This document shows, one piece after another, positions 147 to 23,219 of a DNA stretch of 23,247 bases. Below the pieces are notes generated by a model. The model was given only the letters and a program-made list of their open reading frames with translations. It was not told where the DNA came from and searched no databases. How positions within the stretch are numbered: the first letter of the stretch is position 1; every line of letters begins with the position of its first letter. Position numbers and translations under genes: made by a program. The DNA comes from a virus. The stretch is taken from positions 1 through 23,247 of IMG/VR virus record IMGVR_UViG_3300030117_004241; one strand, 5' to 3'.

Positions 147-2012
147 CTAATGACTAAAACACCCTGAGTTATTCATACCCACTGATATAGTTATACTAAA
201 TGCTCTGTCTGCTGTTTGCGATTCTGCATCTGTTGCTCGTAGGGTAAAGTTATATGTGGTCTCGCTCGATGGACTAGGAGCTGTGCCAGTAATAGCTCCT
301 GTAGACGAGTTGAGGGTTAAATTCATTGTACTCGCTGGTGTATTTGAGTTGCTTGTAAGCACGCTTGTGGTTTCACTAAACGCTACTGTTGAGTCTGACG
401 TAGCATCTACATCTAAAGATACTGACGCTCCAGCTGCTACTTCGCCTAAACTTCCAGCTGCTGTAGACCATGTAGGTGCATCAGATACTGTGAGTATTGC
501 TGAACCAGATCTGACCGCTAAACCATCAGGGTTTTCAACACGTATAAAATATGTGCCATCTGTAGGTAGTGTCACATTAACTGTAAGTTGTGTTGCTGAG
601 TCTCTAACAATACTATTTGGTAGAGTGATAACACCTGTTGAAGCAATAAATTCTACGTTAGGTGTAACTACATAATTCGTTCCTGTTATAACTATATTAG
701 TTGCTGTATTAGGTATGGTATCTGGAGAAATTGAGCTGATCGTAGGTTTAGTTTCACCTGTACTTGTATTAGTTATGGTAATAGTCTCATCGCCGCCATC
801 GTTTGTTTCTGTTAGTGATATGTTAGTACCAGCTGTTAGCTTATTAATTAATAAATCTGGTGTCGTATCGTTTGCTGATATTGCTACGTTAGTATCTGTA
901 TTTGCTACTACTGACCAAGCACTACCAGTCCAATACTTTAATTGATTAGATGAGGTATTATAATTTAAGTCACCAGCATCATTATCACTACCAGGATCTC
1001 CTGCTGTTACCCTGTACCTTGCTGCAAAATCATTGATACCTGATACATTGCTTGCTACTGTTGTCACATTTGCAGCTATACCAGCAACTGTAGTTACGTT
1101 AGAAGAAACGCCGGCGACGGTCGTTACATTAGACGCGACGCCGGCAACAGTTGTCACGTTTGAGGAAATACCTGCTACGGTTGTGACATTGCTGGATATA
1201 CCCGCAACAGTTGTAATATTCGATGCAATACCTGCTAAGGTGTCCATGTTAGTTACATTATCAGAAGTTCCTAATGTATTCATATCTGAGACTATATCAG
1301 TAGTTCCTAATATTGCTAGATCGGCAACTGCGTCTGCAGTACCTAGTCTTCCGATCTCTGTAGCTTTACCTGCAACAGCTCCAATGTCCGTTGCGTCGGC
1401 AGCGACAGCATTAATGTTAGTTGCATTACCTGCAACTGATGTAACGTTAGACGAGATTCCAGCGACAGTTGTAATGTCTGATGTAATACCTGCTAGTGTA
1501 TCAAGATTCGCGGTTGTTGGTCCCATTTCAATACCATCACCGTCTGAATTTACTTTTAAAACTTTGTCTGCTACGAGCTCCGCGCATGTAATATTCGTCG
1601 TAGCAGAGGTCTCTTGGACCTTAATAGAACGATCTGCGACCTCAGATATTTGAGCTGCAATCATTGTTAATTTGTCGAGAGCTGCTTCATGAGTCTCAGC
1701 TCCGAAGGCGTCGCCTTCTACGTAATCTGTTTCCTGAGTGAGTGGTACGTTACGCATGATTACGATCTTATGTGTATCAGGTAACGCGGTATTTACCGTA
1801 ACAGTAGCATAGTTTGTAGAAGCATTAATAGCTACAGAATAGTCATATGTCCCTGAACCATCCTTTGTTTGTAATGTTTGAACACCAGTGGCTATAACGA
1901 CAGTATAGACCTTAATCTCTGTCGCTGCAGCGACAGGAGCATTAAACGGGAACTCGGTCGTTGAACCGTTCCCCGTACTTACCGATCTTGATAATGCGGC
2001 ACCTACTGTCAT
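147..2012 (-). CDS. Tail fibre protein with T7-like N-terminus, decapeptide repeats and Ig-like C-terminal domains
   Basis: 621 aa. Residues 1-150 resemble the N-terminal tail-attachment domain of T7 gp17-type fibres (STGNGSTTEFPF, then VYIM/IVIMRNVP and a coiled-coil-prone stretch ALDKLTMIAAQISEVADRSI). Residues about 171-320 are tandem ten-residue repeats of the type G(I/V)xSNVTTVA, expected to form a fibrous shaft. Residues about 335-370 hold a GDLNYNTSSNQLKYWTGSAW motif seen in many phage fibres. Residues about 422-510 look like an IPT/TIG Ig-like domain, and 511-612 like a He_PIG/cadherin-type Ig domain (LNSSTGAITGTAP). The tip probably binds the host receptor. AGGAG precedes the ATG. 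There is no enzymatic motif and no visible chaperone domain. The domain names are family recognition by eye. Confidence 0.85.
   Translation of the reverse strand: MTVGAALSRSVSTGNGSTTEFPFNAPVAAATEIKVYTVVIATGVQTLQTKDGSGTYDYSVAINASTNYATVTVNTALPDTHKIVIMRNVPLTQETDYVEGDAFGAETHEAALDKLTMIAAQISEVADRSIKVQETSATTNITCAELVADKVLKVNSDGDGIEMGPTTANLDTLAGITSDITTVAGISSNVTSVAGNATNINAVAADATDIGAVAGKATEIGRLGTADAVADLAILGTTDIVSDMNTLGTSDNVTNMDTLAGIASNITTVAGISSNVTTVAGISSNVTTVAGVASNVTTVAGVSSNVTTVAGIAANVTTVASNVSGINDFAARYRVTAGDPGSDNDAGDLNYNTSSNQLKYWTGSAWSVVANTDTNVAISANDTTPDLLINKLTAGTNISLTETNDGGDETITITNTSTGETKPTISSISPDTIPNTATNIVITGTNYVVTPNVEFIASTGVITLPNSIVRDSATQLTVNVTLPTDGTYFIRVENPDGLAVRSGSAILTVSDAPTWSTAAGSLGEVAAGASVSLDVDATSDSTVAFSETTSVLTSNSNTPASTMNLTLNSSTGAITGTAPSPSSETTYNFTLRATDAESQTADRAFSITISVGMNNSGCFSH
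1053..1502 (-). repeat. 30-bp tandem repeats encoding the fibre decapeptide
   Basis: This stretch of the fibre gene encodes residues 171-320. The period is exactly 10 residues (30 bp). The clearest units are residues 261-320: GIASNITTVA, GISSNVTTVA, GISSNVTTVA, GVASNVTTVA, GVSSNVTTVA, GIAANVTTVA. Residues 171-260 carry more degenerate versions (TSDITTVAGI, NATNINAVAA, DATDIGAVAG). The DNA copies differ mostly at third codon positions although the peptides are nearly identical. Confidence 0.9.
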
Positions 2013-19008: not shown

Positions 19009-19261
19009 CCTCGATTGTCATCTCTCCTGTTGACACTTGGTTCACGTCGACAGCTTTACGCTTCGGCGCGACGTATTGTGCTAGCTCCTTTAAACATTGA
19101 AATTTTAACTCAGAACTATTGTTCGGGTCTTTAACAATCATTGCTAAACCTTCAATAGGGTCTACGCCAAGGTCGTCTAACCGATCTTGGATTTCCTGAG
19201 TCCTCTTGTTCTTTGACCCTGCTGGTCTACCAGCTCCAGGTCTTTTGCCACCATTTGCCAT
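18965..19261 (-). CDS. terS: Terminase small subunit
   Basis: 98 aa. The N-terminus GGKRPGAGRPAGSKNKRTQEI is the Gly/Arg/Pro 'GRP-x-GS-x-N-K' start characteristic of small terminases of this type, which recognise the packaging site and stimulate the large subunit. A central helix (SELKFQCLKELAQYVAPKRKA) would support oligomerisation. It is the first gene of the minus-strand virion operon and overlaps terL. No Shine-Dalgarno sequence precedes the ATG; upstream bases are AT-rich and contain a -10-like TATAAA, so the message could begin at the ATG itself. Confidence 0.88.
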   Translation of the reverse strand: MANGGKRPGAGRPAGSKNKRTQEIQDRLDDLGVDPIEGLAMIVKDPNNSSELKFQCLKELAQYVAPKRKAVDVNQVSTGEMTIEVVKFSDDFEDQNTT

Positions 19262-19326: not shown

Positions 19327-19434
19327 AAAGATCCCCTCCCCAAATTCGCGGTTGGTAAGAGGATTAATAAAAATCCATAAAATGCCCCCCGGGGCCCTTT
19401 AGGTTAAAACATAAAAAATTAGGAGGATAGCATC

Positions 19435-19524
19435 ATGGTTGAAGCGATACTTAATATGTTTGCAGTAATCGGTATGATTGTTGCAATCGCTACAGCTCTA
19501 TTGTTTATTAACGATAGATATTAA
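19435..19524 (+). CDS. Small single-span membrane peptide
   Basis: 29 aa (MVEAILNMFAVIGMIVAIAT, then ALLFINDRY), preceded by AGGAGG eight bases upstream of the ATG. Residues about 5-24 form a single hydrophobic helix, with acidic N-terminal and charged C-terminal ends, so it is probably inserted in the inner membrane. It is the first plus-strand gene after the divergent region. Similar tiny membrane peptides in phages act as superinfection or host-function inhibitors or holin partners; nothing here decides. The strong SD and immediate follow-on gene argue that it is real. Confidence 0.65.
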   Translation: MVEAILNMFAVIGMIVAIATALLFINDRY

Positions 19525-19547
19525 TCAATAACAAATAGGAGTACATC

Positions 19548-19700
19548 ATGTGGAAGATAATAACTGACACTGGTTACGTAGTCCGAGTGCGTGAACGCTT
19601 GGCACTATACCAGATACAGTCTGTCTTACGTGATTGGAAAGTCTACATTGAGCGTATTGATGAAGACAAGAAGATCATGTTCGTACGACATTACATTTAA
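19548..19700 (+). CDS. Small basic protein, unknown
   Basis: 50 aa (MWKIITDTGYVVRVRERLAL, then YQIQSVLRDWKVYIERIDED...). AGGAG lies in good position ahead of the ATG. It is Arg/Lys-rich and beta-prone, with short alternating hydrophobic strands and no membrane segment. It follows the membrane peptide by 23 bases and is presumably in the same operon. No family recognised. Confidence 0.6.
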   Translation: MWKIITDTGYVVRVRERLALYQIQSVLRDWKVYIERIDEDKKIMFVRHYI

Positions 19701-19755
19701 TAGTACAAGTCCTCAGGGAAGAGGCCCATAGGTGAATAGCCGGGAGGAAGAAGAG

Positions 19756-19920
19756 ATGGCGGATCCTAGAAATAAACTAAGACAGGCTCTTGAGCTTTTG
19801 CATGAGAGACAACCTGATTCTAAGTATACGGTTCGCATTCGTAAGCCTAAAGAACTTACTTATGATGAAGTATACAAAGTCTATGACCTAGTTAGAGATG
19901 TTATAGACGGTCGCTGGTAA
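19756..19920 (+). CDS. Small charged protein, unknown
   Basis: 54 aa from the ATG at 19756. I prefer this start to the in-frame GTG at 19732 because GGGAGGA lies seven bases ahead of the ATG. The protein (MADPRNKLRQALELLHERQP, then KYTVRIRKPKELTYDEVYKVYDL) has a helical N-terminus, a basic strand and an acidic helix ending in DGRW. No family or motif recognised; the size and location fit an early phage accessory gene. Confidence 0.65.
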   Translation: MADPRNKLRQALELLHERQPDSKYTVRIRKPKELTYDEVYKVYDLVRDVIDGRW

Positions 19921-19979
19921 GACAATACGTTCTTATCATCTAGAATTATAAACTTTGCTGGAAAGCAGGAGGTGGTATC

Positions 19980-20096
19980 ATGATAAATGATATCAACGAG
20001 CTCATTCGTGAGCTTGTAGCTCTTGAAGAGGCTCTTACTTCGGTTAATCCCGAAGAGGAGAATGTTCTTGAGCAACTAAATAAGCTAGAGGAATAG
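19980..20096 (+). CDS. Small acidic helical peptide, unknown
   Basis: 38 aa (MINDINELIRELVALEEALT, then SVNPEEENVLEQLNKLEE). AGGAGG lies six bases upstream of ATG (GGTGGTATC spacer region). The heptad-like Leu/Ile spacing and strong negative charge suggest two short amphipathic helices that could pair as a coiled coil, possibly binding a host protein or mimicking nucleic acid charge. Its last codons form the left arm of a hairpin (20085-20118). Function unknown. Confidence 0.6.
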   Translation: MINDINELIRELVALEEALTSVNPEEENVLEQLNKLEE

Positions 20097-20118
20097 GACC
20101 TAGTAATAGGACCTCTAG
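20085..20118 (+). terminator. Hairpin at the end of the 38-aa gene
   Basis: CTAGAGG (20085-20091) pairs perfectly with CCTCTAG (20112-20118), and inside the loop CCTA/TAGG can form a second 4-bp stem around GTAA. The stretch also contains a direct repeat AATAGGACCT (20092 and 20105). No U-run follows, so it is better read as a processing or attenuation hairpin than a classical terminator. Confidence 0.4.
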
Positions 20119-20144
20119 TATAACTTATCGACGGAGATAACACT

Positions 20145-20513
20145 ATGAAACTGGCAATTTACGCTAAGTCTGGTGTTGGTTCGATCGAGATTGTTAGTGC
20201 TAGTACTCTCAGAGCTGCTGGTAGGTTGACTTTGGAGGAAACTCCTTATCAACTTATCAAGCTTTGGGAGACTATTGAGGCTGACGGAATGTCTGATAAG
20301 ACTTTGTCTATCACTTCATTCTGGAAGTACCTTGATGAGCTTAACAAACGTCATGCTGATGGTGGTATAGACGGTTACTCTGATAAGTACCGTTTAGCAC
20401 CTAAAGCTTGTCTTAAGTACTACTTTGACCTTAAAAAGTCAGAGGGTCCTAAAAGACAACGTTTGTTTGGTGGTATACACTACAAACTTGATCTAGCTAA
20501 CCCTAGCAAGTAA
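20145..20513 (+). CDS. Hypothetical phage protein, 122 aa
   Basis: 122 aa with a GGAG site nine bases ahead of the ATG. It begins with a beta-like MKLAIYAKSGVGSIEIVSAS, then helical segments (QLIKLWETIEADGMSDKTLS, SFWKYLDELNKRHADG) and a basic Tyr/Lys-rich C-terminal part (LKYYFDLKKSEGPKRQRLFG). No membrane segment, metal-binding or catalytic motif is visible. It is the largest gene of the left plus-strand cluster. The basic C-terminus may contact nucleic acid; that is inference. No family recognised. Confidence 0.75.
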   Translation: MKLAIYAKSGVGSIEIVSASTLRAAGRLTLEETPYQLIKLWETIEADGMSDKTLSITSFWKYLDELNKRHADGGIDGYSDKYRLAPKACLKYYFDLKKSEGPKRQRLFGGIHYKLDLANPSK

Positions 20514-20561
20514 GGATGATAAACCGGGACATGGACGTCCCACCAACAAAAGGAGATGACT

Positions 20562-20738
20562 ATGGCGAAAGTAGTTATTACTTTTAAGAGTACTTGTACC
20601 TTAGAAGTACCTGATAGCGCTGAGTCTCTACGTAAGTTGGGTGATGCGACTATCTTAGATATATGTGAAGAGTACCACGATCTAAGTTGTCACATCGCTG
20701 AGGAAACTTATGCAGATGACATACAAATAGAAGACTAA
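20562..20738 (+). CDS. Small acidic protein with two Cys, unknown
   Basis: 58 aa. Two in-frame ATGs exist; the second (20562) is preferred because AGGAG ends six bases before it, while the first (20556) directly abuts it. The sequence starts MAKVVITFKSTCTLEVPDSA with alternating hydrophobics (beta hairpin), continues with a helix ending ILDICEEYHDLSCHIAEETY and a very acidic tail. Cys and His (C-x-x-x-x-x-x-x-x-x-C-H) do not match a known finger. A small hairpin GGGAC/GTCCC (20526-20541) lies just upstream of the SD. Confidence 0.65.
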   Translation: MAKVVITFKSTCTLEVPDSAESLRKLGDATILDICEEYHDLSCHIAEETYADDIQIED

Positions 20739-21047
20739 TACAATATTATGAGGTGATGCCTATGATTGTATAAGTGACAATTTGAACTTGAACTAAGAAC
20801 CCCATATTGTGGTATCTGCTATAGGCAGGCAGAGAAGGGCGCGCTTTTAGCGGTCGGGAGTTGTCGGGCCAAGATAGCAGATTCAAGGACGTCCGCGATG
20901 TGTCAAATGCGACTGGTTTAAGGTTCCTTTATCGAAAATCGTCCGTCAAGACTCTATTAGAAATCGCGCGCGGTCCCGATTAAAACTGATTTTTAATCAA
21001 TACGGATCTCCTAATATTAAATTAATTTAAAATAGGCTAAAATAGTA
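20739..21047. other. Gene-free, GC-rich structured region (candidate ncRNA or origin)
   Basis: Over 300 bases hold no plausible gene. After a mini-frame (ATG ATT GTA TAA at 20762 with GAGGTGATG ahead) comes a block that is conspicuously richer in G and C than its neighbours (about 20820-20975), including GGGCGCGC, GTCGGGAGTTGTCGGG and TCGCGCGCGG. ATCTGCTAT (20814-20822) pairs perfectly with ATAGCAGAT (20874-20882), enclosing 51 bases. TCGGGA and TCCCGA can pair across the block. A hairpin at 20978-20998 closes it. The layout suits a structured RNA, a replication origin or a protein-binding control site; no tRNA features are present. Confidence 0.5.
20978..20998 (+). other. 8-bp hairpin at the right edge of the GC-rich block
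   Basis: GATTAAAA / TTTTAATC with loop CTGAT forms a perfect 8-bp stem. It is AT-only apart from the end pair and is followed by AATACGG, not a U-tract, so termination is possible but not obvious. Confidence 0.5.
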
Positions 21048-21077
21048 GTTTATTTTCGGATAAACTCTATATATAAT
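21048..21077 (+). promoter_or_regulatory. Palindromic promoter element, copy 1
   Basis: GTTTATTTTCGGATAAAC (21048-21065) has 6-bp inverted arms GTTTAT/ATAAAC; TATAAT follows at 21072-21077, with 18 bases between GTTTAT and TATAAT. It stands about 70 bases before the 123-aa gene. AAAATA (21039-21044) upstream can pair with TATTTT (21051-21056) of the element. The near-identical copy at 22138 shares both sequence and spacing. Confidence 0.65.
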
Positions 21078-21145
21078 AAAGATAATGGAATAGGATTATT
21101 TTTAGTCCTACCCATTAAAAAGAAAGAAGAAATAGGAGGACAATT

Positions 21146-21517
21146 ATGGAAACATCTGTTAGTCTACCTACTTCCAAAGCGGTAACTAAACCGGCTGTTA
21201 AAAAAGTGGAAAAAGTATCAAAAGGTACTTCCTACACTTTTAAAAAGTTGGATAATCTTAGCGGTTATCCAAAACAAGCCTTAGTTATCATGGGTGCCTT
21301 AGAGAATGGTAAATCATACTCTTGGGCAGACCTAGAAAATATCGCTAAGAAATTAGCGGCTGATAAGAAACTTTTGGGTAAGAAATCTAAAGATAACCCA
21401 GAAGGTCTTATCAGGCAACCAGCGGAAAGAATCCTTGGATTTTACCGTAATTGGTTTCTAGGGTCAGACCCTCTTGGAAGAGGTTGTTTGGGTTGTTTAA
21501 CTGCCAAAAACAGTTAA
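21146..21517 (+). CDS. Basic small protein, strongly translated, unknown
   Basis: 123 aa. Its initiation region AGGAGGACAATTATG is identical over 15 bases to that of the major capsid gene, suggesting very high expression. The first 35 residues are a Lys/Val/Ser/Thr-rich, probably disordered basic tail (KAVTKPAVKKVEKVSKGTSY), recalling nucleic-acid-binding tails. The body (YPKQALVIMGALENGKSYSW, then ADLENIAKKLAADKKLLGKK) has helix-turn-helix or winged-helix-like spacing, and the C-terminus holds FYRNWF and a GRGCLGCL motif. A DNA- or RNA-binding role is plausible but inferred. It stands alone between the copy-1 promoter and a hairpin terminator, so it is its own transcription unit. Confidence 0.8.
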   Translation: METSVSLPTSKAVTKPAVKKVEKVSKGTSYTFKKLDNLSGYPKQALVIMGALENGKSYSWADLENIAKKLAADKKLLGKKSKDNPEGLIRQPAERILGFYRNWFLGSDPLGRGCLGCLTAKNS

Positions 21518-22132: not shown

Positions 22133-22147
22133 AATCTGTTTATTCTC
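22125..22147 (+). terminator. Inverted repeat over the stop codon of the Trp-rich gene
   Basis: GAGAATAAA (22125-22133) pairs perfectly with TTTATTCTC (22139-22147) around ATCTG. The right arm is the left half of promoter element copy 2, so this hairpin and the element's own palindrome cannot form together. It could end the upstream transcript or act as a switch. Confidence 0.5.
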
Positions 22148-22167
22148 GGATAAACTGATTATATAAT
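22138..22167 (+). promoter_or_regulatory. Palindromic promoter element, copy 2
   Basis: GTTTATTCTCGGATAAAC (22138-22155) followed by TATAAT (22162-22167), with 18 bases between GTTTAT and TATAAT exactly as in copy 1. It sits 23 bases before the ATG of the next gene. One base in the 18-bp core differs from copy 1, within the loop, leaving both arms intact. Confidence 0.65.
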
Positions 22168-22190
22168 AATATAATAAGACAGGAGAAAGT

Positions 22191-23130: not shown

Positions 23131-23162
23131 CTAAATATGCTGTGCGGCTCAATAAATACAAT

Positions 23163-23219
23163 ATGCCAATAATGTCTATAAAAATCATATATATAGGGAC
23201 CCCTACATTGTATTGGCAT
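23163..23219. other. Imperfect inverted repeat in the terminal intergenic region
   Basis: ATGCCAATA (23163-23171) pairs with TATTGGCAT (23211-23219); after a two-base bulge (TG) a further ATGT/ACAT pairs. The enclosed stretch includes TATAAAAATCATATATATAGGG, promoter-like and AT-rich. It lies between the terminator and the third palindromic element. Confidence 0.5.

Follow-up and report, generated by a model that had tools for sequence, protein, structure and literature searches.

The window analysed here is the complete IMG/VR record of 23,247 bases, and its source is a T7-like podovirus. The minus strand carries the tail, internal virion, portal, capsid and terminase genes up to position 19261, and the plus strand beyond that position carries small genes without known function. 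The capsid protein shares up to 60% identity with its counterpart in a spring-water phage and 48–54% with those of the HTVC010P-type SAR11 phages; the uncultured T7-like podovirus family concerned is distant kin of the phages of marine SAR11 bacteria. In a 43-kb relative (the contig of L004), the late genes run in one direction from ~9 to 33 kb, the other arm is oppositely directed and encodes a family A DNA polymerase, and the cumulative GC skew is lowest at ~9 kb and highest at ~34 kb. A PF00940 search for a T7-type RNA polymerase gave no match, and its control likewise matched nothing anywhere, so that this negative carries no weight. From the terminase small subunit gene to the block described below, the window (19434–20738) and the same slot in relatives hold variable small unknown genes, and the gene content of this cargo slot is unlike even between close relatives.

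The longest gene-free gap of the window spans 20739–21145 (407 nt; the runners-up have 173 and 128 nt). The initial annotation had described its first 309 nt (20739–21047) as a gene-free, GC-rich block with a long inverted repeat, and its observations proved largely real. The block is indeed free of genes, with only a 40-aa frame at 20861–20983 that is considered below. The local rise in GC was found in a core (20814–20974, 51.6% vs. 37.9% window-wide) that is equalled by ~0.2% of 161-nt windows, the others all lying inside the terminase gene, whereas the full 309 nt reach just 40.5% because the flanks are AT-rich. The GTCGGG repeat, the TCGGGA/TCCCGA pair and the closing hairpin (20978–20998), whose core TGATTTTTAATCA is family-wide, were all located. 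The exception is the perfect 9-bp inverted repeat with its 69-base span: it exists (20814–20822/20874–20882), but it also arises in ~6% of mononucleotide shuffles of the block and is therefore weak taken alone. Moreover, its arms in L103, the nearest divergent relative, read TTCTGCTAT and ATACCCGAT with three uncompensated mismatches, and the repeat was accordingly rejected as the key stem. Single-sequence folding of either strand was ordinary (z -1.0 to -1.45), so that the evidence for structure is comparative rather than thermodynamic.

Table 1. Features of the block and its downstream flank in window coordinates.
Feature	Position	Strand	Remark
SD-like GAGGTG of the minigene	20750–20755	+	AGGAGG/GGAGG-type in relatives
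Start-stop minigene ATG ATT GTA TAA	20762–20773	+	Present in all 14 aligned blocks and in L101
Hairpin 1, CCA-TATTG-TGG	20802–20812	+	One-base shift relative to CGC-UNCG-GCG of other relatives
Hairpin 2, CTGC-TATAG-GCAG	20816–20828	+	Conserved UAYAG loop; paired in all 14 aligned sequences
GGGCGCGC, conserved GGGCG 3′ of hairpin 2	20837–20844	+	Possible 5′ strand of a closing helix
Variable inner domain	20845–20976	+	GTCGGG repeats in the window
Closing-hairpin core, TGATTTTTAATCA element	20987–20999		Family-wide palindrome behind an A-run
Promoter-like repeat, TTTATT, 17 nt, TATAAT	21048–21079	+	Ahead of the early gene at 21146

Relatives of the block were sought through the neighbouring proteins, the capsid protein and the terminase small subunit. 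Besides near-identical copies, 13 further distinct phages were found to carry the 5′ module at the corresponding place in their genomes, and the shared parts are an SD followed by an ATG, one or two codons and a stop, then hairpins 1 and 2, and a TGATWTTWAATCA-like element near the 3′-end. The order of variable small cargo genes, block and early gene is constant, and the distance from the terminase small subunit gene to hairpin 2 ranges from 345 to 1676 nt across relatives. The gene immediately upstream is a 60-aa gene in the window and L101 and a different gene in L103, and the downstream early gene is homologous yet divergent among relatives. RNA model R1 gave a single strong match in each genome and no match in the wider clade, in HTVC010P or in the searched parts of HTVC035P. 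Two blocks depart from the common plan: L101 keeps the minigene and the 3′ half, with hairpins 1 and 2 replaced by other sequence (a three-way alignment, in which the L103 coordinates were truncated, was used solely for this replaced 5′ half), and in L104 the arrangement is similar but the minigene is harder to make out.

A further protein-based scan and a hairpin pattern scan for relatives yielded no new phages, and the six matches that the hairpin pattern gave among genome contigs were in unrelated bacteria and were taken as chance. The Rfam 15 covariance models had no match in the window at the gathering score, and relaxed thresholds applied to the blocks of the window, L025 and L031 gave chance-level matches only. 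By blastn against annotated phages, the window block had no match and that of L025 had short partial matches only. A tRNA or tmRNA was rejected as ARAGORN reported no match, and an attP site was rejected as no PF00589 integrase was detected in six related contigs, some of them incomplete. Nothing similar was found in the literature searched, the coverage of which was partial.

The mini-frame with a good SD, which had been placed just ahead of the block, is as described but lies inside the 309 nt. Among relatives, it takes the form ATG-NAN-TAR in L105, L109 and group A (L110, L111, L115, L117, L123, L125, L126, L128 and L129), and the form ATG-ATT-GTA-TAA in the window, L101, L103 and L106. Variants include ATG CAC TAG, ATG GAC TAG, ATG GAA TAA and ATG CAA TAA; the second codon and the type of stop codon thus vary across relatives, and the start-stop frame is constant. 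Since an SD/start-stop site is no commoner in the window than in shuffled sequence, only conservation argues for the minigene, and because the upstream gene changes, the minigene is a part of the block and not the stump of one particular gene. The evidence that an immediate ribosome start and stop is intended at this site is modest but consistent.

Hairpin 1 takes the forms CGC-U(U/G)CG-GCG or CAC-UUCG-GUG in other relatives, and the shifted form CCA-UAU(U/C)G-UGG in the window type, which was read by eye and is unpaired in the counted columns. The sisters L123 and L126 have four differences in 358 bases, two of which make up one compensating hairpin 1 pair. Hairpin 2, which overlaps the left arm of the 9-bp inverted repeat, pairs in 14/14 aligned 5′ modules with the stems CTGC, CGGC, GGAC or TAGC, and two-sided changes occur at three of its four pairs. 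For hairpins 1 and 2 together, 93.9% of cells were paired, and covariation was 0.414, whereas shuffles gave 0.158 and slid versions did not exceed 0.127; these values come from 3–4 bp stems in related sequences and from shuffles that ignore kinship. A third hairpin (GGGC-CACGA-GCCC and variants) is present in eight relatives and absent from the window type; its seven distinct segments were 100% paired, two-sided changes occur at two of the pairs, and a single G-U pair is readable on the plus strand. The GGGCG after hairpin 2 is invariant in the 14 sequences save for one G-to-A neighbour, and a long-range closing helix of 20837–20844 with 20965–20976 is a possible pairing that covariation does not show; in its GGGCGC/GCGCCC form this helix fits group A and is a candidate for the others. 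The inner domain carries GGTAC-type repeats in several relatives, and its 3′ part is common only to the window type, L103 and L101.

The checks of conservation and covariation proposed for this locus were thus positive for a structured element, as two-sided changes keep the helices across relatives. An ordinary spacer with chance hairpins would share the ordinary folding energy and the highly variable inner domain, but it would not be expected to hold motifs that never vary, together with compensating changes, at a single fixed location despite differing flanking genes; this reading is largely contradicted, and we regard it as very improbable. We instead consider, with a probability of about 0.6, that 20750–20999 is a conserved RNA-level element of an uncultured T7-like podovirus clade. 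The list offered by the initial annotation (structured RNA, origin, packaging or control site) would then contain the likely answer, with the 69-base inverted repeat dropped as a conserved helix.

Two reading frames bear on whether the conserved motifs are instead the codon remains of a decayed or hidden protein gene. A frame in the 5′ module reads PLRRxxYRxAEKGA-like in most relatives, and several of its conserved residues vary only at third positions; in the 3′ half of the window type, the frame at 20861–20983, like that at 1541–1642 (minus strand) in L101, resembles a shortened helix-turn-helix, DLREVSKATGLRFLYRKSSVKTLLEIAR, and may be what is left of an old gene that the block has picked up. 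The first frame, as a small basic peptide, is however interrupted by stops in L111 and L115 and has no start codon in the window type, and the second has a stop in L103 and matched nothing in Pfam, PHROGs, NCBIfam or among solved structures. In addition, the compensating changes alter amino acids at both sides. No frame is open throughout the relatives, contrary to a decayed gene that is conserved as coding in them, and a protein-coding origin is accordingly judged improbable.

The block also has DNA-like features. Every member ends in a GATWTTWAATCA-like element, and in most of the wider clade such an element lies 379–455 bp from the terminase small-subunit gene. In all nine members of group A, two sites matching WATCAANNNNTTR, which we take to be the IHF consensus and hence presumably bound by IHF, are 69 bp apart and each stand behind an A-run, the second being 70–71 bp before the palindrome (9/9); the expectation is 0.008 such sites per shuffled block on one strand. 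A single IHF-consensus site, 104–114 bp ahead of the palindrome, occurs in some of the wider clade, and the window type block has none. A purine-rich stretch preceding the palindrome is strongly conserved in the wider clade. In the 43-kb relative, the block at ~7.5 kb is within ~1.5 kb of the GC-skew minimum (~9.0 kb), a skew that also follows transcription, and a position near the late/early divergence and this minimum is consistent with an origin or control region. In the wider clade, the ends of five contigs fall within 57 bp near the palindrome, as seen post hoc and with several of them from one lineage; the terminase neighbourhood together with these contig ends hints at a possible packaging site (cos/pac).

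These features could mean that the locus at the late/early divergence is mainly a DNA site, belonging to the replication origin or to a packaging site, where proteins bind (at the IHF-like sites of group A and the TGATWTTWAATCA palindrome) and the hairpins act as DNA. The TGATWTTWAATCA element is family-wide and also occurs in the wider clade without the RNA module, and the fixed spacing of the paired sites in group A, the nearby skew minimum and the clustered contig ends all agree with this explanation. On the other hand, an SD with start-stop codons is meaningful in RNA only, the window type lacks the IHF-consensus site, cargo genes intervene between the block and the terminase genes, and both the skew and the contig ends carry the reservations given above. 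A site acting mainly as DNA is thus rather unlikely, while remaining the strongest competitor of the RNA-level element; since the DNA-like features are present, the locus may act at both the RNA and the DNA levels.

Regarding transcription of the locus, the promoter-like repeat downstream of the block has a second copy at 22138–22169 (87.5% identical); the hexamers were identified by eye and did not reach the scan threshold. These GTTTATTYTCGGATAAACT...TATAAT repeats carry a GTTTAT/ATAAAC inverted repeat between the hexamers, as if a regulator might bind there, and a further GTTTATTYTCGGATAAACT-type copy starts at the contig end from 23239 and is whole in L002. No terminator-like site was found on the plus strand from the upstream gene to the block, and read-through transcription from the cargo operon would be expected on this ground.

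For an RNA-level element, we infer both the transcription of the block and each functional step of the following mechanism. The block would be transcribed on the plus strand with the last gene of the cargo operon, whichever gene that is. A ribosome would load at the SD, link two or three amino acids and stop, and ~30–45 nt downstream of the start-stop site the RNA would form the two small conserved hairpins, followed by the variable GC-rich domain up to the TGATWTTWAATCA element, beyond which the promoter of the following early unit is close at hand. The ribosome at the start-stop codons could in this way set folding, processing or polymerase passage as a cis-acting, leader-type switch. Such a switch between cargo and early genes is the most likely use, with about one chance in three; next come a stable noncoding RNA with a ribosome-protected 5′-end, or a transcript that serves the adjacent origin. 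More speculatively, the block might represent a new phage RNA class in which the ribosome loaded by a purposely empty frame (start, one or two codons, stop) forms a structural or regulatory component of a noncoding RNA at the junction of the exchangeable cargo operon and the early genes, an idea that we hold to be doubtful; such an RNA would gate transcription or occupy ribosomes early in infection.

The bar minigenes of phage lambda are two-codon reading frames, and they resemble the present frame in having a strong ribosome-binding site, a start, one or two codons and a stop in a phage genome. Unlike them, the present frame is coupled to a conserved fold downstream, and different codons can stand in second position (CAC, GAC, GAA, CAA, ATT-GTA), which makes the holding of one particular tRNA an unlikely purpose. 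Another mark of the lambda type is toxicity, as peptidyl-tRNA accumulates when Pth is limiting. Bacterial translated leaders and attenuators place a short reading frame ahead of RNA hairpins, before a gene, and the block likewise has a short frame just before hairpins and ahead of a gene; however, leader peptides are much longer than this frame, no plus strand terminator hairpin follows, and a separate promoter-like sequence precedes the next gene. The HTVC010P-type SAR11 phages share a related capsid protein (about 50–54% identity) and noncoding sequence ahead of the terminase genes, and differ in the lack of a match to the RNA model in HTVC010P and the searched parts of HTVC035P. Structured RNAs have also been identified by comparative genomics, as in PMC2864571 and, for SAR11, PMC2704228, and the block resembles such RNAs in being noncoding and conserved with covarying short helices, whereas it is not in Rfam 15 and is led by a start-stop minigene.

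The best reading is that the block is a new candidate structured phage RNA element and a member of no named family, situated in the control or putative origin region that separates late from early genes. It would give distant kin of the abundant SAR11 phages an RNA element that Rfam lacks, and it is unusual for a conserved start-stop frame to be coupled to a covarying fold. Moreover, the cargo slot beside the terminase genes is bounded by the block, which aids the mining of small early phage proteins without known function.

Other sequence elements were also observed. A conserved GC-rich, palindrome-like GCCCCCCGGGGCCC at 19382–19396 lies near the terminase small-subunit gene, has equally placed counterparts in L026 and the wider clade, and is possibly a packaging site. 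The wider clade (e.g. L132–L153) has strongly conserved noncoding motifs, e.g. CCCCGCAGANCNACT, at 0–560 bp from its terminase small-subunit gene. A TTATTGGCATATTGTATTTATTGGC-like element is present at 23150–23172, and several contigs end near such elements; it adjoins the terminase gene in the wider clade (about 100–130 bp from the small-subunit gene) and is distant and inverted in the window type.
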